NCBI RefSeq assembly: GCF_037975245.1
Contig: NC_092583.1
Location: forward strand, 7,081,264 to 7,145,263
DNA length: 64,000 bases
Reading direction: 5' to 3'
DNA from: Apostichopus japonicus
Lineage: Eukaryota; Echinodermata; Holothuroidea; Aspidochirotida; Stichopodidae
Positions within the stretch are counted from its first letter, which is position 1. Every line of letters starts with the position of its first letter. The notes beneath the pieces are model-generated. The model saw only the letters and a program-made list of their open reading frames with translations, had not been told where the DNA came from and ran no database searches. Below, piece after piece: positions 2,675 to 43,410 of the stretch. Position numbers and translations under genes: made by a program.

Positions 2675-2690
2675 TATGGAACGCCAAAAG

Positions 2691-3420
2691 TATGGAACGC
2701 CAAAAGGGCAATGTATTTTGTTGTCTCCTTTGATGTCTCCTTCGATGCTGTTGTCTAATTTAATGTTGTTGTTTACTTTTATGTTGTCTCCTTTGATGTT
2801 GTTGTCTACTTTTATGCCGTTGTCTACTTTCATGTTGTTGTTTACTTCAATGTTGTTGTCTCCCTTAATGACATTGTCTCCTTCAATGTTGTTGTCTCCC
2901 TTAATGACGTTGTCTCCTTTAATGTTGTTGTCTCCCTTGATGCCGTTGTCTACTTTTATGTTGTTGTCTCCTTTTATGTTGTTGTCTCCTTTGATGCCGT
3001 TGCGTCCTTTAATGCCGTTGTCTACTTTAATGTTGTTGTCTACTTCAATGTTGTTGTCTCCTTTAATTCCGTTGTCTCCTTTAATGTTGTTGTCTCCCTT
3101 GATGCCGTTGTCTCCCTTGATGCCGTTGCCTCATTTAATGCTGTTGTTGTCTACTTCAATGTTGTTGTCTCCCTTAATGCCGTTGTCTCGTTTAATGTTG
3201 TTGTCTCCCTTGATGCCGTTGCCTCATTTAATGCTGTTGTTGTCTACTTCAATGTTGTTTTCTCCCTTGATGCCGTTGTCTCCCTTGATGCCGATGCCTC
3301 ATTTAATGCTGTTGTTGTCTACTTCAATGTTGTTTTTTCCTCTGATGCCGTTGCCTCCTTTAACGTTGTTGTCTCCTTCGATGCCGTTGTCTACTTTGAT
3401 GTTGTTGTCTACTTTGATGC
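2691..3420 (+). repeat. Left 18-bp minisatellite terminal array
   Basis: About 40 copies of an 18-bp unit near TTGTTGTCTCCTTTAATG follow the terminal motif, with variants at a few positions (CCT or ACT, TTA or TTG, GCC or GTT). Because the unit is a multiple of three, it leaves long open frames on both strands; these are by-products and not genes. The array is the inverted partner of the one at 42,712-43,390. The outermost 120 bases match closely and inner units differ in order. Confidence 0.9.
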
Positions 3421-3569
3421 TGACGGCGCTGTTCACCAAAAGCAGTATGGTATGACGTCGTAGTACGTAATATAGCGCGCATATATGGATTGATCAGTAT
3501 GTACGTGCACATAAATGTGACGGCGCAATCAAGTACGTTTATGCTCAGAAGCCAGAATAGACACGCAAA

Positions 3570-6500
3570 ATGTCAGAGCGAAATCAATTAGCCCATCTTG
3601 TCGGTCTCGGTTACACCAACAAAATTATAGCAGAAATGATGGGAGTCTCTGTTAAATCAGTCAAGAACTTACGAAAGTCCTTCAACTTGAGAAAAAAAGA
3701 TATTTGTGGTCAAGTTACAGGTACGGGCCTAGGCCCTATGGCCTAGTCTTTTTATATTTAATACAAATAATAATAGTACTAGGCCTATGTAGCTAGATAA
3801 TACTGCTAATGCACGGCTCAACTCTAGTAACTCAAACTGTATTGTATTGTAATATACTTACTACTAATAGTAATAAAAAGTACTAGGCCTAGGCTCATTA
3901 CTATACAGCCTGGTACCTTGAGTGACTCAAGCTCATTACATTCAAATTCAATGGGAATCCGGGTACCCGTGTACCAATATATGTAACACTATATATATTA
4001 CAATATTGTTGACCTTGTTAGGATTATTAGGTGATATATTTTGAAGTCATTCTAATATGCAAAACATTCTTAACTGATAGTGCTTAGTTTATTTTCTCTT
4101 TTGATTCTAAATACAGTGCATGGAACTTGTTCAATGATACCTTAATCACCAAATCTCTGTTTTTTCTGCTTATAGATCCACAACTTGATGAAATGGTGAC
4201 TGCAGCCTTGACAAGAAACCCAAACTATGGGGAAAAGATGGTTCATGGACTGCTAGCTTCCAAAGGAATTAAAGTTCAGCGGCAGAGGTTGCGACAGTCT
4301 CTTCGCAGGGTTGACCCACAGGGTGAGAATAATAATATTGTTATTGACTTGATCCACACAAGTGGTGTGTGTGTGCATGTATCTGTCTGAAGTTAAATGG
4401 GATTACTCTCCAACGTGGTATGTATAGCTTTGAATTTAATGAGCACGAGAATTCTATTGACATTTTTGGTCAAAGGTCATTTGCAGCCAATAGAGGTTAA
4501 ACACTGAAAACCATATAATCAGACTTGCTCAACCATGTCAACAGAGGTCAAACACGGAGAAGAGGGAGGTTTGGATGAATCTCAACTTCTATATATTGAG
4601 AGTTGATGAACCATTCGTGATAATAGCATAGACATCATTATATAATACCGTACCTTCTCAACACCTGTACACTCACTGTGTCCAGAATCATAATTGAGCC
4701 AAGTTTCTTAACAGCCAAGGTACAATGAAATGTTGTAAATTCTTGTTTTCAAATGACCCCATAATATCCAAATGAAGTAAATTGATCATTATGTTACTTA
4801 TTTGGTCTTCACAAAGTTTGACCACAAGAAATAAATTTAGTAATATGATAAATAATATAAATGTGGCAGAGGTTTATTGATGTACATTTGTCGTCTATGT
4901 TTGCATGTGACCTAAAAGGTGTTTAACATAACTGTAAGCTAACTTGTGTCAGTAAAATCATTCCTTTTCTTACAGGAGTTGAAAGGAGAAAGGCAACAAC
5001 ATTGCACAGAAGGCAGTATCATGTGGAAGGACCAAATTCTGTTTGGCATATAGATGGCAACCACAAATTGATAAGGTATAGTGTTTGCACCGAGTACCCG
5101 ACAGTCACGTCACTACCGGATCCTATTTTATTACCCGATTTCCACCTTTAAAAATTTAAAATTCTGGCATTTTTCACGTCTGAGCGGTACTGGGTTATGT
5201 ATCCGGTGCGCCGAGCGATATCTGGCAGTATAATATCCGGGCGTGCCGGCCACTAAACAGAAGTACCAGGCCTGGAAGAAAACACGCCCGGCACTGCTCG
5301 ACTTTGGTAATTACTGCCTGGAACATTAAAATAGTGCCCGGTGCCCAAAAAATTGGGTACCCGGGTACCCGACAGGTAGCAGGGTCCGGGTATCCCGGTA
5401 CAAATTTTCTACCCGGTGCAAACAATAGGATCAAGTTTTATACATTCACATGGAATGCAATGAAATTAACCTAACATGTGATTAGAGTAAAAATATGTCC
5501 TGCAGGAGGGGCAGAAGAAACTTTGTGGTCACTATGGTCTAGTGTTTACACGGGGTTACCCGGGTACCCGCCCGACAGAATGCCACCTGGTTCCTTATTT
5601 ATCACCTGAACCCTCAAAATCATCATGTGCAGGTCTATCACTCATCAAATTTGCAATAAATTTGAAAAGAAACCATGAAAAATTATATACATAATGTACC
5701 CAATTACAAACAAACTGTTGAATTATCAGTTTCAATGACAAGTATCTTTGAATACATCCATTTTTGCTGGTACAGAATGTGCATTACCAGTATGTGATAC
5801 AGTGCGATTAGTGTTACACAGATCATAGTGGAAATAAAATTAGGGTACCCGAGGGGTAATGTGTCTTATTACCTGAGTCCTAAATTTATTACCTGTGTAA
5901 AGACTAATATATACATGCACAGTATTGGATAGAGTGAACATTAACAATTATTTAATGCATTCTGGGGACCAACACTAAGAGTATATGATCACATGCATTA
6001 TACTCTACATTATGTCATCTCACTATCACTAATAATTCCCCCCCCCCCCCCCCAAAAAAAAAAAAAAACAGCGGCAGCATTGAATTTAGTAAAGTCATAT
6101 TGTGTAGTAAAGTCAAGTTTTGTAACCAGTTATATTGTGTGCATTTGTATAGTATAAATGCTATGTAAAAGGTAAATTGATTGGCAAATGTTAAAAATGG
6201 TGGAGCATTTTGCTATATGATACCAATTAAGTCCAACACTGCATATCGGTGATGCAGGGGCCGCCTGGTTCATAGACATTCGTGATGAACCAAGGGCCAA
6301 TTTTGATTGATTAGGGGCAAGTTAATACAAAGAGTATGGTCAATTGGGCTCTGTATACAATGGATGAAATTCAAATTTAATTCCAAATATGTTATAGCCT
6401 ATGCATAACTAGAATAAATATTGCTAAATTATTGCAGATTTGGCTTGGGTATGTGACATTGGCCCAAATTGCTGGCATTCTATTAAATTTGCTTTGGAAT

Positions 6501-9500
6501 GACCAGGAGCTACTTTCTCTCAAAAGTGACCCCTGGTTCATAACCATTCTAGTAGAACCAGGGGTCACCTTGAGGCTCACCAGGGGCTAAATGGCCCATG
6601 GCTCCTGCTTATTTCGAGCCTTGGATGCAGTAGAATTGAATGTTTGGTTTAGCATGCCAATATAAATGTACCCATTAATATAGGTTTATGCATGTCAACC
6701 TTGTGTGACCTCAAATGTCCATTGATTACTCCCAAGTGATGTTCGCTTCATTATTATTTGTGTACTCATTTTACTCAATACGGAGTAGTACTTACAGATA
6801 CCTAATGGTTAATTACTATATGGTGACCTGAAATGATATTTATTTCAAATTTACATTTCATACTATACAATGCTTTCAAGGTGGCGGTTTGTCATTCATG
6901 GTGGCATTGATGGCTATAGCAGGATCTCAGTCTTCCTTCGTTGTGCTTCTAATAACAGGGCAGAGACTATGCTCTCATCATTTCAAAGAGGGGTATTAGA
7001 TTTTGGACTCCCAGCAAAAGTGCGCTCAGACAAAGGAGGTGAAAATGTTCTGGTTTGTTCATTCATGATGAACCATCCTCTTCGTGGGCCCGAATCAAAG
7101 CCTTTCATCACAGGTCGGAGTGTCCACAATCAAAGGATTGAACGCTTATGGAGGGATGTTTTCACGGTAGGATGATATGTTTTACAAACTTTTTTGTAAC
7201 TCTTATTTATGTTAGGGAAAATGCACATTGTACTGTCATCACATCTCCACATTTCATGATAGATGTCAATACAATTTGACACTTGGCTTATTTATCGTTC
7301 TCCTATTTCACATACCGTATATGTTCTTGAAACAATACTGAAAAAATTATATGACGCAAACCCACATATAAAGAATTATATTTTTCAGATACAAGTTTAT
7401 GATAATTACAACAAACATATCAACCTACTGCGCAGTATCCAGTAGTTTTGTTATAAGCGAAAGTTTTCTGTTCCATGATAGTGAATTCAGTTTGAGATAT
7501 CAGCCTAAAAACCTCAAGATATGCAAAAAGGCATTGTTATTCCTTGCCGTATTGGTTTTGGTGGGTCAAATACACAGTATGAACAGGGTACGAACTAAGC
7601 GAGGGCTGAGGGCGATTATCCCCCATTCAAAAAAGGCCCTGGAGGGCGAATTTGCCCATACATATAGTGTAAGGAAGACAGATTTGGGCAAATTTTAGCC
7701 CCATCAGTCACAAAAGAGCCCTCCTCAGCCAAAATTTATTTGATACCCTGGTCAAATACTGTCTTGCAAAAATAACTTGAGAATACAAATGCCTACTACA
7801 TCAATACTTGGTATGTGAGTTTTTTATATGGAGTACAAACACCATATAGTTTGTTGTGATATTACAAGGTCAACAGTGGTCAATGAAAAACTTGTAAACA
7901 CAAGAACAGTGTTTTACCAAATCCATATATGTAGGCTGCCCATATGGTATACAAGAGCCTTTTGATTTTAGTGCCTCTTTAAAGTCATTTTAGGTCAACA
8001 AAGTTCAAACTCACCTTGCACGCCTCCCATCTTCAGAAGCAATTTTTAGCTACGTACCCAATTATGGTGACTGTCTGACTGCATAGATTTCTTTCGCATC
8101 CGGCAAGGAATAAAAATAGCTATGCTAGGATGACCTCTCCTACAAATTGGTTATGTGCATACAGATTTGGAAGGCATTTTATTATACTTGGGTATTGCTT
8201 GTTCTGGTAGTTTATGGTGACGTCATATATATTTCATTCTTGATGAGTCTCAAGGTGTAGGAATCCTGTTAGCATTTGTCCCTGCATGTTGAGTTTGTTA
8301 CATTTGTGAAAATCTCCAACCGAAAGTTAGAATTTATTCATACTTGGTATTAATGTGTTGGTAGAGAGTGGGTACATGGTAATACATGTTCAAGTTGATT
8401 GATGCATATTTATTAGGGGGCGGGGCTTAATTTTATTTTCACTAAAATAGCTTGTAAACGTAACTGAATAACAACAAGCTGGATTGAAGTCATGCTTGGT
8501 ATATAGATGCGCCATAGTGAGTAGAAGAACCCTATTGATTTTGGTGCCCATATCAAGAATATTGTTGAGGTCACAGGGTCAAATGTAAACATTTTCAGAA
8601 TTGAATCATACTTTGTGTGGAGGTCATAATCTTTGAAGTGCTAGTTTGTGCAGTGTTTAATGTTTTAACATGGCAAGGAATCACAAAATATTTTTTTCTG
8701 GTTACCACTACTGACCACAGATGATTTTAGAAACAACAGGGATTTCATAACAACACATATTGCATGAGGTAACTAACTGCATACAAAGCATTGGCTCAAC
8801 TGCAAGTTAGCATTGTATTATAGGCTGATTGTGTTCTTGGTATTAGCACCCAATTTAACCTCATAAAAATAACCCTATGAATTTTGTTAGGGGTATTTCA
8901 TGTCAACATGGGTCAAACCATGAACACTTTGTAACATTAAAACGGAATCATACTTTATTCTGGTTTTATTTATTTCAATTTGTTAATGTTTCAACAGGGG
9001 TGTGCAAGTACATACTACACGCTTTTCAGCAAACTAGAGGATGACGGCCAACTAGACATCGCTGATGATATTGATCTGATGGCATTGCACTTGGTGTTCC
9101 TTCCAATTATAAATGACCACTTGGGGATATTTCAAAGAAGCCACATGCATCACAAGATCAGAACTGCAAACAACAAGACCCCCCTGCAGCTCTATCATAC
9201 AGCCATAGATGAAGGATATCATGTGGATGTTATCAGTGAGGTAGATATATATATATATATATATATAGTAAAGGTGGTGGCACTCATAGTGTTCACAATT
9301 TTTGTTACACTGGATATGCAAAGTTTGTATGAGGTTCATGTGGACTCACCATTCTAAATCGTGATAACATAAGAAAGGTATTTGAGGTACTTTGCAAGTA
9401 TGTGATTTTTAATAGGACAATGAGCAATTTCAACGTGGAAACTTTACGAGTGCCAACCCCTTTAGATATTTAAAATTGACAGTGCATCTTCCCATTGTCA

Positions 9501-11294
9501 ACATTTTGTAGTGATGGAGTCTCATTAGATTTCCAATGATGCCAAGAGAATGCAGCTGGAATCTACATACTTATTTTGAGGCAGTAAATATTCCACAGGC
9601 TATAAATATTTAAATTTTCAGGTTAGGGCCGCCTAATTAAACAAAACAAATGCAAATTAAAATGTACGAACATAGAAACATTGTCAGAGATAAATACACT
9701 TCATATATTATGGCTTACAATATGCAATTTATTGAAAATAGCAATACCAGAAGGTAAATAGACAAATTTTTGGATACCCGACGGTTCCCATTTTTTTGTA
9801 CCTGTGTAAACATTAGTATCTATGAAGTCATGATGGTGTGTGTGTATGTGTGTGACGCTCCTTGTAGTCACCATAAGTAGACAATGCCTTGGTGAATCAA
9901 GTTCGTACTTGGTATGCAGGTTCTTCATAACGAGTTCAATAATCCTACTGTTTTTGGTGAAAGTCAGAGGTCAAACTCTAAAATCTGTGTGAATTCCTTC
10001 TAATCGGCTCATATTTGGTATATTGATTCCTTGTGGTTAGTACATAACCACTATTGTTTTTGGTGTAGGTCAAAGGTCAGGAGGGGTCAAACACTGAAAA
10101 TCTGGAAATATCGAATTGACAGCTTGTAATCAGCATAACTTAACAAGGTTAGCTTGTAGCCACTTTATACTTGTTTCTTAAACATGTATACCATGGGTAT
10201 TAAACTAATATAAGTATCACATACACACAGGAAGTCTTGGATATAGGAGACAATTAAGTGCCCTTAATCTGAGAAGGATATAATGAATTTTAGGTGTGTT
10301 TGATAGGGGGGGGGGGATGGTAACCACCAAAATTGTGTAAATATCTTGTCAACTGGATAATCCAAGCTGGACGTGCATAAACCTGTCAAAATTTGCAATA
10401 CTGGTGAGCTCAAGCGATGTTATATATTGCACATTAACCAATAGTTACATCAGTTAGTTATGTATCCTGTGATCTCAAATTCTCTTACATGAATTATACC
10501 ATAGTCTGATTATTACATGTCGGTTATTCACAACTTATATAACGTGACATAGACTAGCTCACAGTGATGTATTCAAGGGGTGTGGCATACCCACACAAAC
10601 CCACTCCTACCCCACAACCCTGGAAATTATGCACACACCACTGAGAGTATACTCATTATGTATAGGCCAAAACTATAGCTAGCGGCAATTGTAGAGTAAT
10701 AAGTTCTTCAACTCCAAGCTTTATTTAGCAAGTAGCTGTGCCGAGTAGTGGAGTAGTATACTCAATAATTCTTCATAGTCCAATATACAATCTTACTAGC
10801 TACTGTGTATTCTGGTTATTGAGAGCCAATATCCTTAAAACCAATGTGCTGGATTATGGAGTGTGCCCTTGGAGCATGAAAAAGCAAAGCAAAAAATACA
10901 GCAGCCACATAACCAGAAGAAGAGTCTTAGTCTAGGTTGGGAATTTGACCACGAAGATGACCACATATACATCACAACACTTGCCATACATGTACATTTT
11001 CAATAAAATTCATTAAAAAACATATGGCAAGGAACAAGGAACCACTATGCACAGTTGCGTTCTTATTTTTCTGTAACATTCTTTCAGGAAGAGATGGAGC
11101 ACTACAGACATCAAGATGCAGGTTTTGTTGCTGATGCTGTCAACGTGCCAAATGGAATTCAGCTAACAGAGGACCAACAAGCAGCATTCACCCGTGAATT
11201 CAACCTGGATGTTTCTGCACTTCGTCTGGAACAAGACCAGATCAGCTATTTCGTCGCAGCCAAAGACTTTTTGCACAACATTCTCAACAATTAA
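3570..11294 (+). CDS. Integrase-core (DDE) protein, six exons, apparently intact
   Basis: Exons are 3570-3720, 4176-4322, 4976-5075, 6881-7166, 8998-9240 and 11,088-11,294. All introns are GT-AG and phases agree, giving 377 residues with no internal stop. The N-terminus (about 5-45) looks like a helix-turn-helix ([20 protein letters not shown]). The core carries D126 in WHIDGNHK, D183 in VRSDKGGEN and E220 in [13 protein letters not shown], a D-57-D-37-E arrangement typical of rve/IS3-like integrases. Similar single-copy-looking proteins occur in many fish and invertebrate genomes. It starts 150 bp inside the left terminal array and runs toward the HECT gene, so it is the likely transposase of the large element. 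The start is the first ATG of the exon; the tail (310-377) is acidic. Retained catalytic residues argue for recent activity or host use. Confidence 0.88.
5082..5424. mobile_element. MITE in integrase intron 3
   Basis: The ends are inverted: TGTTTGCACCG on the left and CGGTGCAAACA on the right. The sequence ATAG flanks both sides, a possible 4-bp target duplication. The interior is rich in ACCCGGGTACCCG words. It lies six bases downstream of the splice donor of integrase exon 3, leaving the donor intact. Confidence 0.7.
5541..5905. mobile_element. MITE with TGTTTACAC ends (copy 1)
   Basis: The left end reads AGTGTTTACACGGGGTTACC, and the right end is a diverged inverse (ACCTGTGTAAAGACTA). The interior from about 5590 closely matches 14,951-15,253, so two copies of one family lie in the window. 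Confidence 0.65.
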
Positions 11295-11369
11295 TTGGCA
11301 TTGAAAACAAGTACTGCAGATGAGTGTGAAGAGGATGTTACACTATACTACAGTATAAACACAAAAACA

Positions 11370-12660: not shown

Positions 12661-13029
12661 TAAAGCAGTTTTAGGATAAAATATATACATATAAGCATTG
12701 TATATGCTAGATAACGTAAAATGCAACGTTACCTCAGGATAATACTCGTCACACCATGTAGTATTTGTGAAGGTAGGCTGCAATTATTAAGGGCCAGGTC
12801 AAGGAAAATCAGAACAAAACAAACTCTTATAATCTAAAGTCCAATTTTGTGATCAAAATCAATGAAATTTGTCAATGGAAAAAAAATGTTTGGAATAAAA
12901 CAATAACAACAACCATTTGCATAAGATATGTTTCATAGTAAATATATTAAACAATGGCATCAGTGATTCTGTAACACAAACTTACTTTGGTTGAAGCCTT
13001 TGACCATTAGTGACAGATCCTGTATGATC

Positions 13030-24900: not shown

Positions 24901-25555
24901 ATATACACCAACCCCACCCCAAATGCAACGACTGGCCATCTAAATTTGTTCACTAATAAAAAACACACATGGCATACCTATTTCCATTGCAACTTTCCCT
25001 GTGTTGTTTCAGCTTTGTTTCAGGAATCTCCACGTGACAAATGAAACATTCTTGCAGCGTATCATCTACTACAGATACATCCTCCGTCTAAACAAACCAG
25101 AAAACCGAAATGTTTTTGTGATTATATGATTATACCAAACTCCTGAACAACCCAAATGAGGCACTGGCAAAGAACCATAGTGACAAACCCTGTAACCCAC
25201 ACAATTGTACCATAGAATTTGTATGAAAAGAAGCATTTTGATTGATTTTATTAAATGGGCCATATGGCCCACATATGGCCTCGAACTCAAAAATCCTAAC
25301 TCCCTGAGGGCACCACTACCACAGTACTATTGTGACAAACCCTCAATATTGTACCATATAATCTGTAGGATACATTTTGCATATCTACACAAAATGGCCC
25401 TAAAATGGCCCTTCATGGCCCACATGTGACCCTTGACCCCAAATTTTGGACCACCACTCACTTATGACCCATCATCCAGTGGTCATTGTGTCCAAGTTTC
25501 ATCAAAAAAAGAAGCAGTGCGCTACAGAACAATTGTGAACAGAAGGCTAGATACA

Positions 25556-25623
<68 letters not shown>

Positions 25624-31600: not shown

Positions 31601-34600
31601 AATACCTCAGCAGTCAGCACCCCATTCTCTCCTTCTTTTTCTTCCTATAACGTATGTATCTGCTAGCAGACACGTTTTGAGGCTCAGGATTTTCCATATT
31701 GATCTGTTTTGCAAAGAGAGATAAAAGGACATTCTTACCAGCGGATGCATGAAAAGGGACTGGGGTGGGGGTATAGCCCCACACATTTCTGGCTTAATTA
31801 TTAAGAAGTTGGGGGACCAGGAAGCAATAGTGGTCTTCCCCCATATGCCAACGTGTGAATAGAAAGAAAGAATAAGTTGGCTTCAATATCCTGTGAATTG
31901 TGTATTACATATGCAATATGACATGAAATTGGCCTCATAATGTGCAGTTATGAACAGGCTGAATAATTGCTAGGCATAGACAGTATACACTTCCTGCACA
32001 ATATATTTCAACTAGCCTACCTTGTGTTTTGGTTCACTTTTTTTGCATCGTAGGCTACAAGTTTCAAAATCCAACTTAACATGATAGATAGCAACAGTTT
32101 AGGCAGCATACCATATTCTGTTAGGCAACAGCTTAGGCTAAAACATTAATTTGCTAGGCTAGACAACTCCAGCAAAATAGGTAATATTTCATCTAACAGG
32201 TTTGCTTCCTAGCATAAGTCCTGTAGGCTACACATTTCTACTCTCATTATATTATAAGTTTTGTTTTAAACCTTTCCAAATAACATAGTCTGTTAGCAAC
32301 AGCTTAGGCTAAATCATAATTATCACTATTAAATTGTCTGAATTGCCTATAACCATGAACTGGAGGTAAATTAATATATTACTATTGAGAAGCAATGAAT
32401 TCTTACCTTTATTCTTGCAATCTAGCTCTTCTATCTTGTATGCTTCAGTATGTGAGTACCATAACAACTTGACTTTAAAGTCAATTTCTTGTGCACGTGG
32501 ATCATTGTTCATCAGCAGATGATATCAATTCAAAAGCACATGTTCTACAATGGATAGTTTAGGATAGCCAAAAGGGCCAAGAAAGAAACCTAGGGTGAAC
32601 AACTAGGACTATTTCAATAGTGATTGGATTTATTTATGCATGATAAAAAACCCATTCTCAATTACCCCAAAATGTGTTGTTTTGACACATGAGGTTCAAA
32701 ACTGATGTGATGTGTACAGTACTGTATGTATGGAATCTCCAGATACATAAAATTTTGAAGTATCATCAATTAATCACATTGTTTTAAGGTTGGGTGTTCA
32801 AGGAGTCTGAATAAGTTTGTAATCTTAAGTGACAGAGGTAAATTTTGGACCAGACATGCTGTTTGAAGTTGCCTTCCATTGAAAATTCCGTCCCACCACA
32901 CCTTGTTTCCGTCCCACCACGAAAATGTTGGACTATCCCCCTGTCTATCCAGGATAAAATATTTATTATTTCTCCACTCAGAGGTGTCAGTTACATACAT
33001 AGTTGATAGTTTGGAGAGTTTAAAAAAAATTATCATTTTTTTCCCCCTTGGAAATTAAAAAAATATGTTCAAAAATGTGGTGGGACGGAATTGAACACTT
33101 TCGTTTTATTTTTTTCTTCATTCAAGAACTACTATTGATACATTTTATAGTGCATAAAGTATCCTCATTAAAGGCCATTTATACTGCCAAAAACAGAAAT
33201 ATTCAACTTTGTTCCCATATGTAATTACCTCATTTTTCTGAAATTCCGTCCCACCACATCAGGAATGTGCTACCTGCATTTTGGAATGACCGCATTCCAT
33301 TTTTATGCGAGTTATCGTAATTTTTTTTGATGATTACAGAACTTTGGTTAGTTGTTCTCATAACCATGGGTGAAATGAGCCTAAGTGGCAATGTTCAAAT
33401 TCCAGGTAAAGTGATGACCATTAATGGCTTTGGCCCTAAAATCAACATGATTCTTTCTTTTACCTACTAAGCAATTCCCCCTGGAAATTTTTTCTCCAGA
33501 CAATTTCCCCCGGACAATTGCCCCCCCCCCCCCATCGGATTAAGGTTGGGTTAGGGTTGGGGTGGGGATTAGGGTGGAAATTTTCGGGGGGAAATTGTCC
33601 GGGCGGCAATTGTCCAGGGGGTCGAACGATCATGAAAACTTCCTGACAGTAATATTTCAGCAGAATGTAACTTTGTCTGTATTATTTAACTTATCATTTG
33701 TGTGTACTATGTATAGTCTCTAATAACCCTACCTATGGTGAAAACATTAAACAATGATCTTGGTTTTTCAACGCTAACCAAAGAATTATGGCAAGGAATC
33801 ACAAAACCTTTTGGTATTCCTGTTTTACTTGATCTGCATCTTATTATCACATTGTGCTTGTATTCTAGAGTTTCATTCTACTACAGGTATAGTCTCAGTA
33901 CTATAATCACAGGTTGTTAATAAGTATTAAGCCATGCTACATTGTAGCAGAACTAGAAATAAATAATCAGTTAATTACCTGCACTGCGACCAGCAGAATC
34001 TTCAATGCGGAGCATATATGCTCGACACCTGCTTATTAGGATGGCCTGTCTGCCCACACCTTCTACACCAAGTTGCTGAAATTGCCCCGAATTCATGAGA
34101 GTTGCAGCTTCAGGAGTGACCTGTAGAATTTATCAGAACAAGTAATAAATTTCCTAAATTAATAGAACAGTGCCTACCATTTGCAATTAGTAAAACCATT
34201 CTTATGTCCGTTGAGTTGTCAAGGGTCTCCAACAAGATGGGATATAGTTACAGCCAGATCTGATCAGTGATGCTATTCAGAAGCATCAATGTGAAGTGTA
34301 AAAGACATTACTTATTTATTTAAGCCTTACAGTGTGAAATTCTGACTTGTTTGGTCAGTGATGTAGTGAAGGGACTTTGAAATGTAGTGAAATATCACAG
34401 TCCATAAATATATATTTTTTTTAATATTTCCCAATTTGTATGTCAAACGTTTTTTTTCTTCAAAAAAGACGCATTGGCATTTCGCAGTGTTCGACTGACT
34501 GTATCTAGCAGGTGTGTACCCATATCATTGATCTGCATCATGCACCGGGTACCAAAATTATATATTCCAGACCAAGCAGGGTTGTTTGACTTAAATCACA

Positions 34601-35583
34601 GTTGATTAAAATCACTGGTTTAAATCCAATTTTAATCAAATAATTTTTTAAATCACTGATTTAAATCACCTTTTCCGATATTTTTTGCTGGAAAAGTTGG
34701 TTTAAAGTCAATGCAATCATTTGGATCAACTGATACCACCAAATTACACACTGTAGAATGATGTTAACACATATGTACCCCTCTAGAGCAGTCAACTTCT
34801 AAATTTTATAAAGATTAGGTTACCCAAACACACTTGTTTATGAATAAAAATCGAACTCATTTATAAAATTTAAAACACTAAATTTTTTTCACGATCCCTT
34901 CTGCCATTCATAGTTATGGTATAATAATGATGATGTTGCATAGTAATATAGGCTAATGATTACAATAGAATCCCAAGGCATTTAACATATATATATATCT
35001 TGATTATAGTGATGAGAGATAACAATAATGTGGCTTCTGTTTTCATCAAAGTTTTAGTTTTATTCGACCAATGAACCAATGATCATGTCATTGAAAATCT
35101 TACAATTAAGTGGTACATGTAATATTCTCACTCACATAATTTTGATCGATTCAGTCAGGTGGTAATGAAACATCACAAAAAGTAGCAATCTTTCTAAATA
35201 ATGTTGTCGATGTATGCAATGTGCAGTGTAATTTCCATGTAGCATTTAATACAGCTATAGCCTAGTATAGCCTAGACCTAGCTCTTATGCCTAGCCTAGC
35301 CATAATAGTAGTAGTATTGCTATGTTAGATAGGCCCTAGGCTGGCCCTAGGCTATACTACTTATATTAGTACTCCAGTAACACAGCCATGTTCAATGACT
35401 AGGCCCTAGGCCTAGTAGCCTACTACTACTAGGCCTAGGTCCTTGTAGCAGTAGGCCTAGGTCCTATGTCTAGTATAGTTCTAGCTAGATAGGCCCGGGC
35501 TATGCTGACTTTATTACCCCCTCTCTTCTAAAGTTGTCGATCACCAGTTGATTATACTCCAGTCTGGATAGAATTCCTTCCAT
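15932..35583 (-). CDS. HECT E3 ubiquitin ligase with UBZ and UIM, twelve exons
   Basis: Exons (5' to 3') are 35,583-35,518; 34,120-33,979; 30,542-30,451; 28,351-28,049; 25,087-24,978; 23,163-23,071; 22,739-22,638; 21,932-21,708; 20,225-19,964; 19,019-18,865; 18,185-17,950; and 16,224-15,932. All have GT-AG borders and agreeing phases, for about 692 residues. Residues 105-200 resemble the N-terminal module of fish proteins annotated G2/M-phase-specific E3 ligase-like (GLGKKKLAL, YPKLRDAGGF, YLRPIQAELDL). C215, C218, H230 and C234 form a Rad18-type UBZ4 finger. Residues 285-300 (DDELQHVIEDSLKDID) match a ubiquitin-interacting motif. The HECT domain runs from about 335 (FSGEEAVDLGGPRREFFT) to the end, with the catalytic Cys about 659 in PIASTCGLELHLP. 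One in-frame TGA sits mid-HECT before IIAWSILHGGPG, so this copy is probably a recent pseudogene unless edited or a sequence error. It starts about 290 bp inside the original right array. Confidence 0.87.
16560..17895. repeat. Tandem-like cluster of a GGTCA-rich interspersed repeat
   Basis: Roughly eight diverged units of about 150 bases each carry TGACCTTTGACCTC, an AATAGG/ACTCATTATGGG block, CCAAATATGAGCTTCATC and TTGAGTTATCTTGATTACAA. Single units of the same family recur throughout the HECT and integrase introns (near 4490, 8500, 10,000, 15,300, 22,300, 24,050, 28,900, 30,200 and 30,640). Family ends often read CACATACACACA and GGCAAGGAATCA. No coding capacity is seen. Confidence 0.7.
19557..19875. 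repeat. AGCTCATACC-family repeat pair
   Basis: The palindrome CATACCAGCATGCTGGTTTG (about 19,590) and a second copy at about 19,848 bracket 260 bases. The left part is the reverse complement of the start of the 11,370 copy (CAATTGTTGACGCACTGTAAC). Confidence 0.55.
20946..21472. mobile_element. hAT-type MITE with exact 8-bp duplication
   Basis: The ends are CAGGGGTCGC and GCGCTACCCCTG, flanked on both sides by CATGGAGC, an exact 8-bp target duplication. The TIR start CAGGGG and the 8-bp duplication are hAT features. The interior has no transposase and lies in the HECT intron between exons 8 and 9. Confidence 0.88.
22015..22130. repeat. ACTCGAGTCC foldback cluster
   Basis: The words GGACTCGAGTCC, GGACTCGG and CCGAGTCC repeat in both directions over about 115 bases. 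This makes a compact hairpin-forming repeat in the HECT intron between exons 7 and 8. Confidence 0.7.
23540..23957. mobile_element. TTAA-flanked MITE
   Basis: The inverted ends begin AGGGGAACTGAAG and are flanked by TTAA on both sides (23,536-23,539 and 23,958-23,961). Inverted similarity extends about 80 bases inward (AATACAAGTACTTTAC, AAAACCG). TTAA duplication fits piggyBac- or Kolobok-type mobilisation. No transposase is present. Confidence 0.85.
25557..25625. repeat. (GATA)n(GACA)n microsatellite
   Basis: A short run of ATAG repeats passes into about 14 ACAG repeats. It sits at one end of an AGCTCATACC-family member. Confidence 0.9.
25894..27785. mobile_element. Foldback element with ATTCGAATA subterminal repeats
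   Basis: The inverted ends are ACCCTTACC(C/T)AACACGAATA. Both subterminal zones (25,905-26,150 and 27,360-27,780) are packed with AGTATTCGAATACCT-like palindromic words. The middle (26,200-27,200) is unlike them and has no supported gene. A smaller inverted repeat, CGTCAGAGCCGAATTA, brackets 27,476-27,652 and may be a second insertion. No target duplication was resolved. Confidence 0.7.
29092..30140. mobile_element. hAT-type MITE with internal tandem units
   Basis: The ends are CAGTGGCGTAGCCAC and CTGGCTACGCCACTG. The flanks are CACACACG and CACACACT, a 7/8 match. The interior consists of about four diverged units of roughly 190 bases (TTGAACAATTAGGGGTCCTTAGA, TAACTTTTGAAGTAAA). A second MITE is nested at 29,225-29,478. 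The element lies in the HECT intron between exons 3 and 4. Confidence 0.8.
29225..29478. mobile_element. Nested hAT-type MITE
   Basis: The ends are CAGGGTTC and GAACCCTG, flanked by TTTTCAAA and TTTTCAAG (7/8 match). The interior is rich in GTCCAAAACCTG and GGTTTAAACC palindromes. It interrupts the first internal unit of the larger MITE, so it is younger. Confidence 0.82.
30948..33260. mobile_element. Element with iterated GTGGTGGGACGGAATT motifs
   Basis: The 16-base word GTGGTGGGACGGAATT or close forms occurs near 30,948, 31,113, 31,314, 31,329 and 33,077 on the plus strand, and near 32,884, 32,908 and 33,241 on the minus strand. Outer copies face inward, so this looks like a transposon with multiple end-binding sites. 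GGGCCAAAGCC at 30,920 and its inverse at 33,424 may mark the true tips. Minus-strand pieces (32,512-32,410, and a basic stretch near 31,650-31,480 with RKKRQRANQKANNRAVYKAS) may be relics of its own gene, but I could not join them. It lies in HECT intron 2. Confidence 0.6.
33470..33625. repeat. Small foldback with GGACAATTGCC motifs
   Basis: The words CCCCCGGACAATTGCCCCC and GGGCGGCAATTGTCCAGGGGG lie inverted around a G/C-rich core. It is probably a short MITE. Confidence 0.55.
34575..34690. repeat. GATTTAAATCA repeat fragment
   Basis: A CAGGGTTGTTTGACTTAAATC start is followed by repeated GATTTAAATCAC and TTTTAATCAA words, like one end of a hAT-type MITE. The opposite end was not found. Confidence 0.5.
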
Positions 35584-35830
35584 ACTTCTGAGCTGTTGTG
35601 AGAACCTAAATAACGGCAGTACAGGTGAAGCACGACAATAAGAAAACGCAGAAGACCTAGGCCCTACATGTATTCTCGGCATATGCGAATTGCGTGACTT
35701 TACTACGTACATTTACATCACTCACATCAGTCTATTAGTCTAGTAACCGGTCGTGCAGCGCACCACTGCTCCGTATGCATTACGTACACGTTGTATCCAG
35801 GGACCAGCTAGACCTCAACGAACATTTAGA

Positions 35831-35850
35831 TTCCCGCCATTTTACAATGG
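35831..35850 (-). promoter_or_regulatory. YY1-like motif upstream of the HECT gene
   Basis: The minus strand reads GTAAAATGGCGGGAATC about 255 bases before the HECT start codon. AAAATGGCGG matches the core of YY1-type promoter-proximal sites. The overlapping CGCCATT...AATGGCG is a short inverted repeat. Position and motif fit a TATA-less core promoter; this is inference only. Confidence 0.35.
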
Positions 35851-36453
35851 CGCTATTATATACTAAAAGTCAGAGCCTTATATAGAGAGAGTTGCGACAA
35901 CTGAAATTTAGGCGCCATTTTGGGGCCAAATGGGCAACATACAGTATGTGTGGGAATGGGCGTTCAGGTGGATAGGGGAATTTTTCGATGGCATTGTAGA
36001 AGTGTGAGCGGGATTCTGGGTTTTATTTTTGGCCTGATAATGTTGTGGTGCTTTTGGGCGCCGAGGCTGTGTAAGTAGGGCGTCGAGTGTCGAACGGGAG
36101 GGGGGGGGGGAGGGATTGGCTGCGCTCAAGTTCAAGGGGATGAGGTTGGCACATTTGGAAGTCCAAATTCAACAGTTGATATTCTGGTACGGTAAAATTG
36201 TATTATGACTGGTTATATATCATATTGTAACACATATTGCAGAGTTGCGGAATAATGTACATTCTTCCATTGTTGCCATGGTAACCAAACAAAGCCTGTG
36301 ATTGGTCAAAATTGGGATTAACTGTAACTTGAGCTAGCAATGGCTGATGAAGTTGATATTTGGACATGTGACTGGTACTGACATGGTGCACAGAATCATG
36401 AAGCTAGGTCTTTGAAAATTGGTTGCTATGGTAACTAAATGGACCAATCACAT

Positions 36454-37420
36454 CAGGCTTGGGGCGATTACATCTGAATGTAATCGATTACGATTACTTG
36501 AGAATGTATGATTACGATTACAGCCTAAAGTGGAAGTAATCGATTACGATTACATTGTAATGTAATCGTGATTACAATCATGATTACATTGTGGTTACTT
36601 GCACAATCCTCTGCATATCTGTTTAATATAACTCTCTGCCGGGAAATAGGGCAATGAAATAGGGCAAGGGAAGGGCTTTTACAGTATATACGGACAAAAT
36701 TGTGGAAGTATATCTACAATTCCTACCAGGCATTACACATTTATGCCTTAACACGTTTAAGATGTGTAACCCATAAGTCCAGTAAAAAATACAATTTAAA
36801 CAGACAAAGAGTAAACAGACAAATACTAAAGTAAAACAAATGAAGATTTTCATGCAACACTATATTTTGTAAACTAATAATTTCTGCATAGCAGCAAAAC
36901 TAAAAACTGTTTTACATTATAACACCAAATTAAAACTAAACAGCTTTGAAATGGGGCATTCCACAGTACATGGGACATGGAAGGCCAAAATAAAAGTAAA
37001 TTATTTTCATCAAAAAGTGGTCAACTCTGGTAAAGCAAATTCTGATCCACCAAAATACTTAATTTGCAGTGATTTTTTTTGAACAGAATAATTCAGGTGA
37101 TAAAAAATCCTTGAATATGGCGATCAATTCCCCAGTATATAATTTATGTTTATTGTGCTAGAGAATTCTAGAAGCAGGAACACTTCTTTGGTCACATTAA
37201 AAGCCAATAGTAAGAATTAGTTTAATCATTTCTACTAATTTTGCCCTTCTCATTCAAATTTCACTGTAATCATAAATGTAATACGATTAAGATTACTTTG
37301 CCCTTGTAATCCATTACGATTACTTTGTAATTTTCACAAAAGTAATCGATTACGATTACTTCAAAAAATGTAATCGATTGTAATCGATTACGATTACTGA
37401 TTACGGTTACCCCAAGCCTG
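36454..37420. mobile_element. hAT-type MITE with TAATCGATTACGATTA motifs
   Basis: The ends are CAGGCTTGGGGCGATTAC and a diverged inverse ending ACCCCAAGCCTG. AATCACAT flanks both sides exactly (8 bp). Subterminal zones are packed with GTAATCGATTACGATTAC words. The middle is AT-rich and non-coding. It is nested in the P element. Confidence 0.9.
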
Positions 37421-37721
37421 AATCACATTTTGTCTGTGTTCCAGTCCCACAAAATTTAGAGCGCAGGGTTAACAGTGACATGTGGGGCAGGGAGGGGGAT
37501 TGTTTCGGGGTATCACAATTGGTCTCGTCGGTCGGATATAAACAGCCACGTCGGGGAAAAAAATGAATTAATCCCTCCCTCTCGTCCAGGTTCAGAGAAC
37601 GTGGTCGGTTCCTGGAGTACGCTGGCATCAGTCAGATGGGGGCACAAAATAGCAGTCCCGGGAGCACTATGGGCTTGGTTACACCCCTGCCTCGTTAATA
37701 TCTGAGCACTGTAGTCGGTGC

Positions 37722-40700
37722 TCATCCACGATCATCACGGCCAGGGTTCCTCGTATGAACCTCAAAGGCTTCCTGGAGGGCCTTCTTGACAGTGGCGTCA
37801 CCCCATCTGACACCCCGTGTGCTGCTCCTCCCCAGAGACGTCAGCTGATCAACAGAGAAAATTTTGCACAGTTTTCGCCTCTGTCGGTGTTTAGCTTTCA
37901 GCAGCTCTCTCTTCTCCTTCCTCACTCTCCTCAGCCTTGTTCTCAGGTTGTCCACCGTCTTCTGTAAATGAAAGGAGAGAGGCAATAAGCTTTATAAGTC
38001 ATCTACTTGGTTATCCCATGAAGCTGGTGGAGCACTTGTCCCCTGTCGGATGGTGTTGCTTGTCTGGTCCAACTCTCATTGCGGACATGATCAAGTCTAC
38101 CATTGTATATTCGGGACTTGTTACTAAACTGCACCTTGATGATTGATCCATCTCTGGTCATATTGTTCACGTCACGCCATCATTAAACCCATCCTTGGAT
38201 TACACTTGCAGTGCCCTACCCTCTGAGCGAATCTGATCTGCAGAATTCCCATGAATTTCACCATATGTGAATGTCATCAACTATTAGAAAGAGTAGGTAT
38301 TATAGGTAGTATCTTTGGAAGAATGATCGCCTTAATCTCCACTCCTGCTCATATCTGGGTTCTTGTGGCATGAAGCCGATGGGAGCATAAAACTTTCCCA
38401 GCATGAGATACCAGTCCAACAGTGACTTGTTCCTAAATGAAGTTAGTACCCACCACACACTCACACAGCTGGGTGGGATGAACCTATCTTAGTAAAGTAC
38501 TTTGCTCAGTACACAGCAATTACCTGGGCAAAACTCAGACATGGACTGTTGGATTCAAAGTACAGAGCACTAACTGCTAGGCCACCACTGCCCACTAGGA
38601 GTACAAAGGAACAAATATACAACAGTGCCAGTGTTTGGCAGTTCTAGGTCACTGGCAGGGGAGGAAATTATTTTCAAGCCTTGTGGCTTCTTTATCACTC
38701 AAAATCACCACTGCATGTTGAAGGTAATTGACAATTTAGATTGCCTGGCATGGGAGTTTTATTTCGTATGGTTACGGGGCTATCCGCCAGAGTAGGAATT
38801 AAGTAGTGTTTAAACGGGTTATTCGGGTACCGGCCCGTCACAGCAATACCCGAATCCTGTATTTGCGGGCATGTCTAGAGGGCAATTTTCAGTAGGATCA
38901 TTGAACTATTTTTTATCATGGATCTATCATACACTAACCTTCAATCGCACTTCATAAGGTTGGGCGGTGCTAGTAGAAGGCGGATCTGTTTGGGCTTGGA
39001 CCACTGCATCCTGCTGATCACTAGCTGGCAGCTGGTCTTCATCACTAGACTGCTCATTGGGTGTCTCTTCATCTAGAACGAAAAAGGGGCAGAAGTCAGA
39101 GTACAGAGATTTGTGACCACGTACTGGTACCAATTTTTCTTCCTGCTTATTTCACCCAATGTATGTTCCAGAAAGTGGAACACACTGCCAGGTATCTCTC
39201 CTTCACAACAACTTTGCTGACTTGGTCAAACTCCCAACCAGAAATTGCATCATTTAGGTTGCAGATAGCAGCTCTCTGATTCAAACCGGAAAACCATTTG
39301 TTTTCACGATCAGACCGAGTCCTCGCCCTGGCAGCCTATGATCTAAACATATATAATGATTAATCCAAGCGGGCACATACAGTAACAGTAGGCCTACTAC
39401 ACTGAGCAAAGTATTAGTGACCAAACAGCAGCAATGAGGCTTTACAGGAGACCAGTTAAGATTTTTGGGGGCACACTCTCCATCATTTAACTCCAAGTAA
39501 TACAATGCATGTCTTGGAGTGGGTATATAGCCCTCTGACACGGTGCAGACCCCAGAACTGGAAGTGAAGTGTAGTAGATCAGATTGGGATGCAGCAAAGT
39601 GCTTTCCAGTTATGTGCTCCTGTGAGTGAGTGTGTGAGAGCTGTTACCTGTGTCACATACTTAGTTTCTATCAAGACACACATTCTACTAACTATCCAGA
39701 CCCCGCTCCATTTATTGAATACTGTAATTTATCCTCAGATTCTGGCATACAAATTATAAAACTTCCTACCTAGATCAGGGCTGTCCAGCAGATCAGAAAT
39801 TGGGAGAGCATAATCATGGTCTGCCAGTTTCTGATGTTTCACTGGCAATGGAGCGTCCCTTCTGGGTGGTGGTTTCCGCACTTTCTTGCATCGTCGATGA
39901 GGCAAGATGGTAGGAATTGCTGTCGACTTCAGTTTCCGCTTCCCATCCACCCGGTTCTGCTCAAACTGGTCCTCTGAGAAGTGAGCCTGTAGGAGGGAAA
40001 AATGATGCTGAATTTTATTCAGTGATAGGCCCCGCAACTTTAATATATATACCAGGAAACTAACCTGTAGTTCTAGTGTGGAGGGGGGGGGGGGATTTTT
40101 AGTTGCACATTAACCAAAATAGCTATGAATACTGTACATTTAGATTGGAACACTCCCAGAACAGTATGACATTTAGGCAGGCATGGGGGGGGGGGGTTGC
40201 CTCTACCCACCAGCCAGGTCGGTCAGAGTAAATTCTCAGTGACTGACGTCATAGAAGATGAAATTTGCTGCAGTTACTCTTCTGACCTTGGTTTTGAAAC
40301 AGAGGGGTGGGGTGGGCAGTTCTAAGTGTTATACCGTGGCAGTTGGAAGAAGGCTCATAAGGCTTCATCACAGAAGCCTAGGCTGAATATTTCTCACTCA
40401 GCCACTGTCACAATGTGGGTATGACCTAATTTTATTTCAAATGTATGAAATACGAATAATAAATTGCAGCTGACAGGACTTTACCACCATAATATGACCC
40501 AAACTGGGTGCTGTAAGGAATGTACACTAATATGGAACTCACATCGCAAATATATGGTATATGTGAGTAGGATATTTCAGCGTTATGAGAACTAAGCTGC
40601 TGCTGGAATTTGAAAAGATCTACTTCAGAATATTTTTGTATGAGAGTCAGGCTTTTATCTACGAATTTTATGTCTAATAACTTGAAAAAGCTGCATCTAT

Positions 40701-42540
40701 ATATACTATAGGATCCAAAAAGTCAGAAATTCTTCAAAATACCAATTGAGCCTCTATTACTAGGCATGGGCTTCTATTATTAATGGATAAGGTAATCGTG
40801 ACCAGACAACACCCCCCGGACAACCCCCCCAACAGAAGCATAAATATGTTGTCAGAAGTCGAAAATTAGAGTTTTCTTTTGGGGGGGATTGCTGGGGGGG
40901 GGGTGAGTTGCCTGCCAACCATGGTAAAATGCTAGGCCTAGGCTCAGTCAAATTGAATTTCCTGGGTTATGTCCTCTTTTGCTTGGAACTGCCCGGTTGT
41001 AAGAATATGAATTAGGATCTGTATACCGTACCTATGTATGACATGGACAAACATGATTCCTGAGCCTAATTTGGCCTATGGTTTTCAGTTGACTCTGTTA
41101 GTTTTACCTGCTATCCTCTAACAGGACACAATGTTCTAGGAAATATTTTTACCTAGCCTACAGTGATATTTTAGTAACCTAATTTTTCAATATTATTTCA
41201 TAAAAGATAGTGGAGTTCTGGACCAGTTCAATTCAAATCATCAAGTGCAAAGCAGAATGATTAATCATTTCAATGGTCTGCCAGATCGCCACCCAAATTT
41301 TCATAAATAATAATCCGAACAAGCTCATGACTCAATGGAGCCAAGCAGTTTTTCATTAGGGGGCTAGGCTAGCCCTTGGTGCTTTGTATTGCACACTGTG
41401 CTTCGTAGATCCCCGATTTGTCTTGCCACGCTGGAGCCTTCAATTTAAGGAATATACCCACTAAACTTTGCAGAGATATTTTTATGCACCTTATAACAGA
41501 TCTCATCCCAACATCGCAACTTTCTTGATCAGAACTTGTTAAAAATAGACCATTTTCATGCCTGAAATTTATGCTCTGTTTTCTGTGATGTTAACTATGC
41601 GTGTATGTACACTGCACAGTGCACCATACCCACAGTAACCCACAATCCTGGTTATCAGGGAAGTAAGTGCAGCCAAAAAAACCCCGGAAAACTATTCGGA
41701 GAAACCGGGGGAATGTCGTCCTAACGCATCCTACTCCTAGCTCTGAATACTTACGCACTATCGTTATGTTAGGCTAGCTCAAAAGTATTAGCGCTCTAAC
41801 ACATCATACCCCTAGTTCTGACTACTTACACACTATCGTTATGTTAGGCTAGCTCCAAGTAACGAATACGTCGCAGCGAAATCCGGAATAAAAAACAGTC
41901 TCACATTTGAAAGCGATCACGAATATCGACTATCATATGCGTATCCCGTAGATTTAGCCGCTCACAAATATCACAAGCGTTATTTCCGAAACTTATGTCG
42001 AGCACCAGCAGTTACGAATCAACGTGAATTAGGCAAGGCTTTTCAACGACAGAAATGAGCTATGGCGATTTGAAGTTCGCACGTACGCAACGATGTTCAC
42101 ATGGCACACACAATGTTGTACAGTGCAATGCGATGTGTAACAGGAAATGGTATTTTGGTTGAGCGATGAGTGAAAATTGAAGTTAGCTTGCTGCAACGGG
42201 CCAGGCATTTTTGCCGCGTTGTGTGGATTTGATATTTGTACAATTTTGTGGAACTTAATTGGAATTAAAAAAAAAAACCGGATTTCCGTAAAAATACGGA
42301 AGACTTACATCCCTGTGGTTATGGACTAGGCTAGGCCTAGTGTTACGAATCTTAGTTCATTGTACTAGGCCTAGGTGAAGTACTCACATCACAAAGTTTG
42401 TGATTGGAGTTCGCCTTCCAGTGAAGCCTGTTTACTTTTGCCTCCCATGTTTTCCTCCTATCTAGGTTTGTTGGGAATCTGAAAAGTTTTGAACCATTTT
42501 CGGGACGATTTGAACAGCCCCACGCTGAACAGCCAGGCAT
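37722..42540 (-). CDS. THAP/coiled-coil P-element protein lacking the catalytic core
   Basis: Exons (5' to 3') are 42,540-42,388; 39,986-39,770; 39,072-38,939; and 37,961-37,722, with GT-AG borders and agreeing phases, for 247 residues. Residues 1-75 form a THAP zinc finger: MPGCSAWGC supplies the first two Cys, and LCD joined to AHFSEDQF supplies the C-x2-H pair. A basic linker and an acidic Ser/Gln-rich stretch follow. Residues 169-200 form a basic coiled coil (VDNLRTRLRRVRKEKRELLK). Then comes the start of the P-transposase family region (FSVDQLTSLGRSSTRGVRWG, VKKALQ). The frame ends soon after, so the GTP-binding/RNase H-like parts are absent. DNA-binding-only P products can act as repressors in Drosophila; that role here is inference. 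An in-frame ATG at 42,618 could extend the N-terminus by 26 residues, but MPGC is the usual THAP start. Confidence 0.85.
38330..38605 (-). mobile_element. tRNA-derived SINE
   Basis: On the minus strand a tRNA-like head reads GGTGGCCTAGCAGTTAGTGC (box A-like), with a degenerate box B about 45 bases on. A tRNA-unrelated body follows (CCCAGGTAATTGCTGTGTAC, CCACCCAGCTGTGTGAGTG). It lies in the P element between THAP exons 3 and 4. Confidence 0.6.
41720..41865. repeat. 75-bp tandem duplication near the P-element right end
   Basis: CACTATCGTTATGTTAGGCT occurs twice, 75 bases apart, within two diverged copies of a longer unit (CTAACRCATC, TACTTACRCACTATCG). The subterminal position would suit transposase binding, but this is not shown. 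Confidence 0.65.
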
Positions 42541-42711
42541 TTCGTGATGGCAGCGCAGATGTTGACTGCTCAAACGTACGTTGTTGTCGATCTTACGGCC
42601 AGAATTAGTTGGCCCCAAAATGGTGCCATGGGGTCACGTGATCGAAAATTCCGGGACCCGAGTTGTCGCAACTCTCTCTATATAAGGCTCTGCTAAAAGT
42701 AGACATCATCT

Positions 42712-43408
42712 TAGAGAACGGCATCAAATGAGACAACAACATCAAAGTAGACAACGGCATCGAAGGAGACAACGGCATCGAAGGAGACAACGGCATCGAA
42801 TGAGACAACGGCATCGAAGGAGACAACGGCATTAAAGGAGACCACGGCATTAAAGGAGGCAACGGCATCAGAGGAGACAACACCATTGAAGTAGACAACA
42901 ACATTAAAGTAGGCAACAACATTAAACGAGACAACAACATTGAAGTAGACAACAGCATTAAAGTAGACAACAACATTAAAGGAGACAACAACATTGAAGT
43001 AGACAACGGCATTAAAGGAGACAACAACATTAAAGTAGGCAACAACATTAAACGAGACAACAACATTGAAGTAGACAACAGCATTAAAGTAGACAACAAC
43101 ATTAAAGGAGACAACAACATTGAAGTAGACAACGGCATTAAAGGAGACAACAACATCAAAGTAGACAACAATATTAAAGTAGACAACGGCATGAAAGGAG
43201 GCAACTGCATAAGAGGAGACAACAACATTAAAGTAGACAACGGCATCAAATGAAACAACGGCATAAAAGTAGACAACAACATCAAAGGAGACAACAACAT
43301 CAAATGAGACAACATAAAAGTAAACAACAACATTAAATTAGATAACAGCATCGAAGGAGACAACATCAAAGGAGACAACAAGATACATTGCCCTTTTGGC
43401 GTTCCATA
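42712..43408 (-). repeat. Right 18-bp minisatellite terminal array
   Basis: Here the 18-bp unit appears as CATTAAAGGAGACAACAA, the reverse complement of the left-array unit, in about 38 copies. A sub-block of several units is itself duplicated (42,900-43,020 and 43,018-43,140). It ends in TACATTGCCCTTTTGGCG followed by TTCCATACT. A long open frame crosses it only because the unit is a multiple of three. Confidence 0.9.
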
Positions 43409-43410
43409 CT

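Follow-up and report, generated by a model that had tools for sequence, protein, structure and literature searches.

The 64,000-nucleotide stretch of the Apostichopus japonicus genome analysed here (the window) has inverted ends at 2691 and 43408 that enclose genes for an integrase and a HECT E3 ubiquitin ligase. This raises the question of whether the two genes and the ends belong to one transposon. An earlier note had proposed such a unit, with inverted ends ~40.7 kb apart. These ends are borne out by AGTATGGAACGCCAAAAGGG, which matches the window twice, on the + strand at the left (2689-2708) and on the - strand at the right (43391-43410), where 0 matches are expected. The proposed minisatellites are also present: 18-bp arrays lie inside both termini, with an 82% match over 417 bp between left and right (Table 1). 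The extent first given had to be trimmed, as sister copies place the element at 2691-43408 and leave TATGGAACGCCAAAAG outside. With a probability of about 0.85, we read the locus as a DNA transposon of giant size that carries two genes and most likely belongs to the IS3EU/GingerRoot superfamily.

Table 1 Features of the window and of two related elements
Feature	Position	Strand	Remarks
Extra tandem copy of terminal 16 bp, TATGGAACGCCAAAAG	2675-2690	+	Outside the element
Left terminus, TATGGAACGCCAAAAGGG...	2691-2716	+	26 bp, perfect inverted match to right terminus
Left subterminal minisatellite	2730-3419	+	18-bp unit, 38 copies
Integrase/transposase gene	3570-11291	+	6 exons, 377 aa, identical to annotated P0001
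Integrase exons	3570-3720, 4176-4322, 4976-5075, 6881-7166, 8998-9240, 11088-11291	+	
HECT E3 ligase gene	15932-35712	-	Modelled by comparison with P0121
SAM-like exons	about 35503-35712, 33980-34120	-	
Basic exon	about 30451-30561	-	
N-domain exon	28049-28351	-	
CCHC zinc-finger exon	24978-25087	-	
UIM-like exon	22638-22739	-	
HECT-domain exons	21708-21932, 19964-20225, 18865-19019, 17950-18185, 15932-16224	-	Pfam and solved-structure profile
In-frame TGA in HECT gene	about 20111-20113	-	Q in P0121
Target duplication CTAAAAGT, left of nested element	35863-35870	+	8 bp
Nested P-like element	35871-42692		6.8 kb; 32-bp inverted repeat CAGAGCCTTATATAGAGAGAGTTGCGACAACT at both ends
THAP-domain gene in nested element	37725-42633	-	Hand-made model; exons in about 42.4-42.6, 39.8-40.0, 38.9-39.1, 37.7-38.0 kb
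Target duplication CTAAAAGT, right of nested element	42693-42700	+	8 bp
Right subterminal minisatellite	42722-43381	-	18-bp unit, 37 copies
Right terminus	43383-43408	-	
C22 element	C22:22632644-22656712		24,069 bp; TSD GTTATC both sides; 168-bp perfect TIR
C5 element	C5:1994003-2018872		24,870 bp; TSD TGTCAC both sides; 70-bp TIR

The 377-aa integrase matches the Pfam model PF24764 (rva_4) with an E-value of 6.5e-78, and is arranged as a helix-turn-helix-like start (weak HTH-type Pfam matches at about residues 13-39) followed by the rva_4 core. Pfam calls no zinc-binding or HHCC domain in the protein. D126, D183 and E220 are invariant across 28 aligned integrase proteins and are taken as the putative catalytic triad; with the rva_4 core, they uphold the proposal of a DDE integrase. 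Matches of the integrase profile to solved structures were all weak, and no relatives were found in the viral contigs scanned with the integrase alignment.

The ligase gene is multi-exon and convergent with the integrase gene, running from 35712 to 15932 on the - strand, as had been claimed. Of its proposed UBZ-UIM-HECT domains, the HECT domain is called by Pfam and both of its lobes (N- and C-lobe) match solved HECT domains by profile, while the UIM is present as a UIM-like exon. T751-C752, the catalytic cysteine and its preceding threonine, is the same in all 11 aligned proteins, of which two are isoforms of one gene. The UBZ4 ubiquitin-binding finger has the pattern C-x2-C-x11-H-x3-C. By eye, this pattern is seen in P0121, P0123 and P0125, with Pfam calling no UBZ. 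The predicted structure of the HECT protein has a mean pLDDT of 66.8 and a pTM of 0.45, and no conclusion rests on this model. Viral contigs scanned with P0121 yielded no relatives. In the window copy the HECT gene is broken: it carries one stop, and two exons, those for P0121 residues 282-333, are absent with ~0.9 kb that is present in a copy on another contig (C6).

The gene inventory of the earlier note was right as to the integrase and HECT genes, and missed both the SAM-like domain and a nested P-like element. A THAP gene within the latter, at about 42.6-37.7 kb, overturns the claim that no other genes are present (PF05485, E 8e-15, for the hand-joined product). The P superfamily is marked by a THAP domain and an 8-bp target duplication, and the nested element shows both hallmarks; in its scanned ORFs THAP is the sole Pfam call, with no P transposase core called. 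The idea that the THAP exons encode the start of the HECT protein was also considered and rejected, since P0121 begins with a SAM-like exon and C6 is without the THAP segment. Both genes had been said to start just inside the ends. This holds for the integrase, 0.9 kb in, whereas in the window 7.7 kb separate the right end from the start of the HECT gene, because the nested element sits inside that end. In the C6 copy, which is without the nested element, the HECT gene starts 0.8 kb inside the right end. Once the 6.8-kb insertion is subtracted, the element proper measures ~33.9 kb.

Sister copies decide whether these parts move together. The terminal 20-mer is common in the genome, with 1071 + 1117 matches (<=3 mismatches) where the reversed control gives 17 + 14, and no target duplication flanks the window copy, so two separate short non-autonomous copies might by chance flank unrelated host genes. 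We consider this very improbable here and reject it for the family. C6 matches the interior of the window as well as its ends (2690-35870 plus the right end), at 95.5-98.9% identity in long blocks with gaps, and the 24-25-kb elements on C22 and C5 are bounded as wholes by exact and differing 6-bp duplications. These two are copies of one related family with the same gene layout as the window. In C22 the 18-bp period recurs at both ends, and the exons of annotated P0003 (integrase) and P0123 (HECT) are colinear, with 377/377 and 745/747 codons placed, respectively; for C5 the end regions were read directly and the exons placed by search. TATGG..CCATA termini are shared by the window, C6, C22 and C5. 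Because sister elements at separate sites share this layout within different exact duplications, the ends, 18-bp subterminal arrays, integrase and HECT gene constitute one mobile unit, which the earlier note had put forward as an inference. Across the insertion events examined, a 6-bp duplication was found in five of eight. Further cases are TTAAAG (L023), GTTTAA (L038) and CTTCAG, the last being a single event represented by 13 loci that share their flanks (nine exact, four with one mismatch); the duplication is absent at the window, C6 and L024 copies.

Pairing of the two genes across the genome also argues against chance flanking. Among the matches listed, a convergent integrase lies no more than 40 kb from 14 of 18 clusters of HECT-region exons, against a mean of 0.46 and a maximum of 4 in 2000 shuffles, and no integrase in another orientation lies within that distance of any of the 18. 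On unlinked genes, which the earlier note had named as the observation that would count against it, the evidence is divided: again among the matches listed, no integrase lies within 40 kb of four of the 18 HECT clusters, and a convergent HECT is missing beside 69 of 85 integrase clusters, mostly of more distant integrases. The latter include an integrase at C10:9.74 Mb that is 83-86% identical to P0009. For one unpaired HECT cluster, 9 kb downstream were read and no integrase was found. Among listed clusters of HECT fragments, five of 15 have an integrase within 40 kb in another orientation.

Several diverged families within this genome make up the HECT-bearing lineage, and on codon comparison between two of them replacement changes are far fewer than silent changes in both genes. 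For the integrase, window versus C22, pN is 0.243 and pS 0.781 (377 codons), and the exon borders fall at the same residues (50, 100, 133, 228 and 309); for HECT, C6 versus C22, pN is 0.311 and pS 0.762 (703 codons). This contrast makes it improbable that HECT was taken from the host in a single capture and is carried as a passenger with no function in transposition. Such a passenger would fit the broken gene in the window, the unpaired HECT clusters and the 16 short copies examined, which at 1.6-6.7 kb are too small for a complete HECT gene; yet the reading frame has been kept despite saturated silent differences, and the T-C pair is invariant. Between the window and C6, HECT shows pS 0.011 and pN 0.011, that is, no constraint since the split, as is expected of decaying copies.

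The filing of the element as most likely IS3EU/GingerRoot follows from its TATGG..CCATA ends, 6-bp TSDs and integrase-like DDE core without an HHCC N-terminal domain. IS3EU elements are described with TA..TA ends and usually a 6-bp TSD (PMC10045372), and those of fungi with TAYGG..CCRTA ends and TIRs >30 bp (PMC12730594); the TIRs of C22 (168 bp) and C5 (70 bp) agree with this length, and the window has 26 perfect bp plus arrays. Ginger1, described as having an HHCC domain and a 4-bp TSD (PMC10045372), was rejected, as no HHCC is called and the duplication is 6 bp. The sea-cucumber element differs from known IS3EU/GingerRoot elements in its size (24-41 kb), its many introns, its 18-bp subterminal arrays and its second gene, a HECT ligase. 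An accessory gene opposite the transposase has a parallel in fungal TET+ IS3EU, where transposase and alpha-kinase genes are oppositely oriented with a TET gene between them (PMC12730594); the second gene of this animal element encodes a ubiquitin ligase instead. Pfam called neither TET nor kinase in the 17 window ORFs scanned. Styx is thought to derive from a two-protein IS3EU element (PMC10853768).

As to mechanism, the N-terminal helix-turn-helix of the integrase would bind the ends and repeats, and insertion by the enzyme would involve a 6-bp stagger. The HECT protein, expressed from the other end, would be an accessory factor; its zinc finger and UIM-like helix would read ubiquitin, alongside a SAM-like domain and the catalytic cysteine. 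We tentatively favour, at somewhat under even odds, an accessory factor that acts on the host: the ligase may ubiquitinate a host protein that restricts the element or its integration intermediate. For such a host-directed role, the alpha-kinase and TET genes found in fungal IS3EU would offer a parallel, the TET gene being thought to aid the element against silencing (PMC12730594). The ligase might instead mainly control its own integrase, limiting transposase level or, once insertion is complete, stripping it from the ends, which would hold copy number at a tolerable level. Its presence in the same unit as the integrase, its conservation between families and the SAM_2 match, a protein-interaction domain, in two of the 11 HECT proteins (Pfam) are compatible with this; we regard it as unlikely, as a selfish element would be under weak selection to inhibit its own enzyme.

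Among the papers listed, titles and abstract openings disclosed no DNA transposon with a HECT ligase, and the library searched yielded no paper naming both IS3EU and HECT, Repbase entries and Repbase Reports lying outside this scope. A further likeness is Burro, giant gypsy-like retrotransposons of animals with ubiquitination-linked domains, thought to meddle with host systems (PMC6431247). Burro differs in being an LTR retrotransposon with the domains inside its polyprotein, whereas here HECT is a separate gene.

The element brings a transposase and a ubiquitin ligase together in a single mobile unit of an animal genome, and exact TSDs border copies of this unit. Should movement depend on the ligase, the ligase's substrate would identify a host factor that restricts transposition. 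The HECT protein family reaches further fish (13 matches in a protein search). It is possible, with the odds against it, that an animal IS3EU lineage needs its own SAM/zinc-finger/UIM/HECT ligase to disarm a repair checkpoint or a defence of the host, and that many sea-cucumber and fish genes annotated as 'G2/M phase-specific E3 ubiquitin-protein ligase-like', plus a Lingula relative, were copied or descend from transposon ligases of this kind. Transposon cargo may thus be present among the HECT genes that are annotated as belonging to the host.

The integrase and HECT ligase genes belong to one mobile unit, as an earlier note had proposed for 2675..43410: a close sister copy on contig C6 matches its interior and ends, copies of a second, related family on contigs C22 and C5 carry target duplications, and most clusters of HECT-region exons have an integrase partner. 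The inverted ends claimed in that note are real, the terminal 20-mer occurring twice in the window in opposite orientations (0 expected), and 18-bp minisatellites lie inside each end.

Features of the window
Feature	Position	Strand	Observations
Giant element	2691-43408		TATGG..CCATA ends
HECT ligase gene	35.7 to 15.9 kb	-	opposite to integrase
Nested P-like element	35871-42692		32-bp inverted repeat; 8-bp duplication CTAAAAGT; THAP domain/gene
ORF outside the giant element	50117-50911	+	DDE_Tnp_4, E 4e-21; presumably a Harbinger-type transposase

From C6:12566398 onward, window positions 2690-35870 are matched at 95.5-98.9% in long blocks, with gaps, and the right end is matched too. In this copy the HECT start is 0.8 kb inward of the first right terminus; a piece apparently of another copy (C6:12599044-12599490) directly abuts the element and carries a second right terminus, 447 bp further out. 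The C22 and C5 end regions align in register at 92-98%, and the alignment stops at TATGG..CCATA, with none between the flanks beyond. Exact 6-bp target duplications border both copies (GTTATC/GTTATC in C22, TGTCAC/TGTCAC in C5). No 6-bp duplication was found at the window copy (flanks CAAAAG/CTCGGC), at the C6 copy or at locus L024. The window left end bears an extra 16-bp terminus and the C6 right end an adjoining piece of another copy, and both the window and the C6 copy lack a target duplication.

The earlier statement that the unit holds no other genes fails, since it missed the nested element and its THAP domain. This insertion lies just upstream of the HECT gene; the C6 copy lacks it and runs uninterrupted across the site. 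THAP domains and 8-bp duplications fit P elements. Once the nested element and the 8 bp that its duplication adds are subtracted, ~33.9 kb remains for the unit. Among ten further window ORFs scanned with Pfam, the THAP ORF alone gave a match above cut-off.

When as many as 3 mismatches are allowed, the terminal 20-mer is matched 1071 + 1117 times across the 671.6-Mb genome, in which the window lies on contig C23, and the reversed 20-mer, as a control, 17 + 14 times, so the family has very many copies. The 16 short copies fetched span 1.6 to 6.7 kb. One (L023, C8:37996900-38000050), non-autonomous and 2.8 kb long, has the target duplication TTAAAG, and HECT exon 1 alone was found in it. Thirteen others (L025-L037) have their flanks in common, with CTTCAG exact at 9 loci and carrying one mismatch at the other 4; the element therefore seems to be nested in a larger repeat, which multiplied in its turn. 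In the window copy and the C22 copy alike, the 18-bp period with its common core GTTGTTGTCT recurs at each end, which suggests binding sites.

The integrase gene comprises six exons and 377 codons, all in frame; every codon of the annotated A. japonicus integrase P0001 could be placed, with 100% identity over the 309 residues searched. A helix-turn-helix-like N-terminal start precedes an rva_4 core. The HECT gene keeps phase across eight hand-spliced exons, with one in-frame TGA. Comparison with its annotated relative P0121 indicates a SAM-like N-terminal start (SAM_2 in 2/11 relatives, best E 6e-5), then a conserved N-domain, a CCHC finger and a UIM-like helix ahead of the HECT domain. A profile of the 11 relatives matches both lobes of solved HECT domains (best 6jx5, AREL1, E 4e-26). 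Pfam called neither UBZ nor UIM in the HECT proteins, both labels having been assigned by eye.

Genome-wide searches, with overlapping rows dropped, yielded at least 151 integrase places in 85 clusters and at least 82 HECT places in 33; all counts are lower bounds because only the best candidates were scored. Of 18 clusters with a HECT-region exon, at least 14 lie no more than 40 kb from a convergent integrase, and for none do the matches listed include one in another orientation. Shuffling integrase clusters inside the observed span of each contig, with random strand, gave a mean of 0.46 and a maximum of 4 (2000 shuffles). The remaining 15 HECT clusters consist of fragments of exon 1 or of the N-domain, at least two with a convergent and at least five with an otherwise oriented integrase, one cluster being in both sets. 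The earlier note took unlinked copies as evidence against a joint unit; the HECT-region clusters mostly speak for linkage, whereas 4/18 of them (C16:26.52, C16:30.50, C17:18.84-18.87 and C17:22.07-22.09 Mb) have no integrase, and 69/85 integrase clusters no convergent HECT, among the matches listed. At C17:18.87, the 9 kb read downstream held no integrase. Integrase cores at least 65% identical to P0001 occur at no fewer than 16 loci, 14 of them paired with HECT; at one of these (C5:11.87 Mb) the HECT side is an N-domain fragment only. At C4:4.26 Mb, another of the 16 loci, a HECT fragment with a weak match (43% over 51 aa, E 5e-4) sits and points as a partner would be expected to. Among the matches listed, no HECT accompanies the integrase at C17:24.96 Mb (at least 65% identical to P0001) or C10:9.74 Mb (83-86% identical to the integrase P0009).

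Between the families, replacement change is far below silent change in both genes (integrase pN 0.243, pS 0.781; HECT pN 0.311, pS 0.762), with silent sites saturated, so HECT has been retained through the divergence of the families. A passenger without a role in transposition is the least likely reading of the ligase; control of the element's own integrase ranks above it. We tentatively favour, at roughly 0.4, that the ligase would act on a host factor. Window and C6 coding sequences differ by ~1% (integrase pS 0.016, pN 0.006). HECT, with pS and pN both 0.011, a stop, and residues 282-333 not found in this comparison, points to decay of the window copy.

According to PMC10045372, IS3EU elements have TA..TA ends, duplications that are usually 6 bp long, and a DDE core that lacks HHCC; the sea-cucumber element resembles them in its 6-bp duplications (C22, C5) and TATGG..CCATA ends, and by these features it most likely belongs with them. 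In the fungal TET+ IS3EU elements described in PMC12730594 the ends read TAYGG..CCRTA, and the transposase and alpha-kinase genes, in opposite orientations, have a TET gene between them; fungi thus already offer an example of a second gene that opposes the transposase. In the present element the gene opposite the transposase is a HECT ligase. Judged from the literature searched, such a ligase in the second-gene place, and in an animal, looks new.
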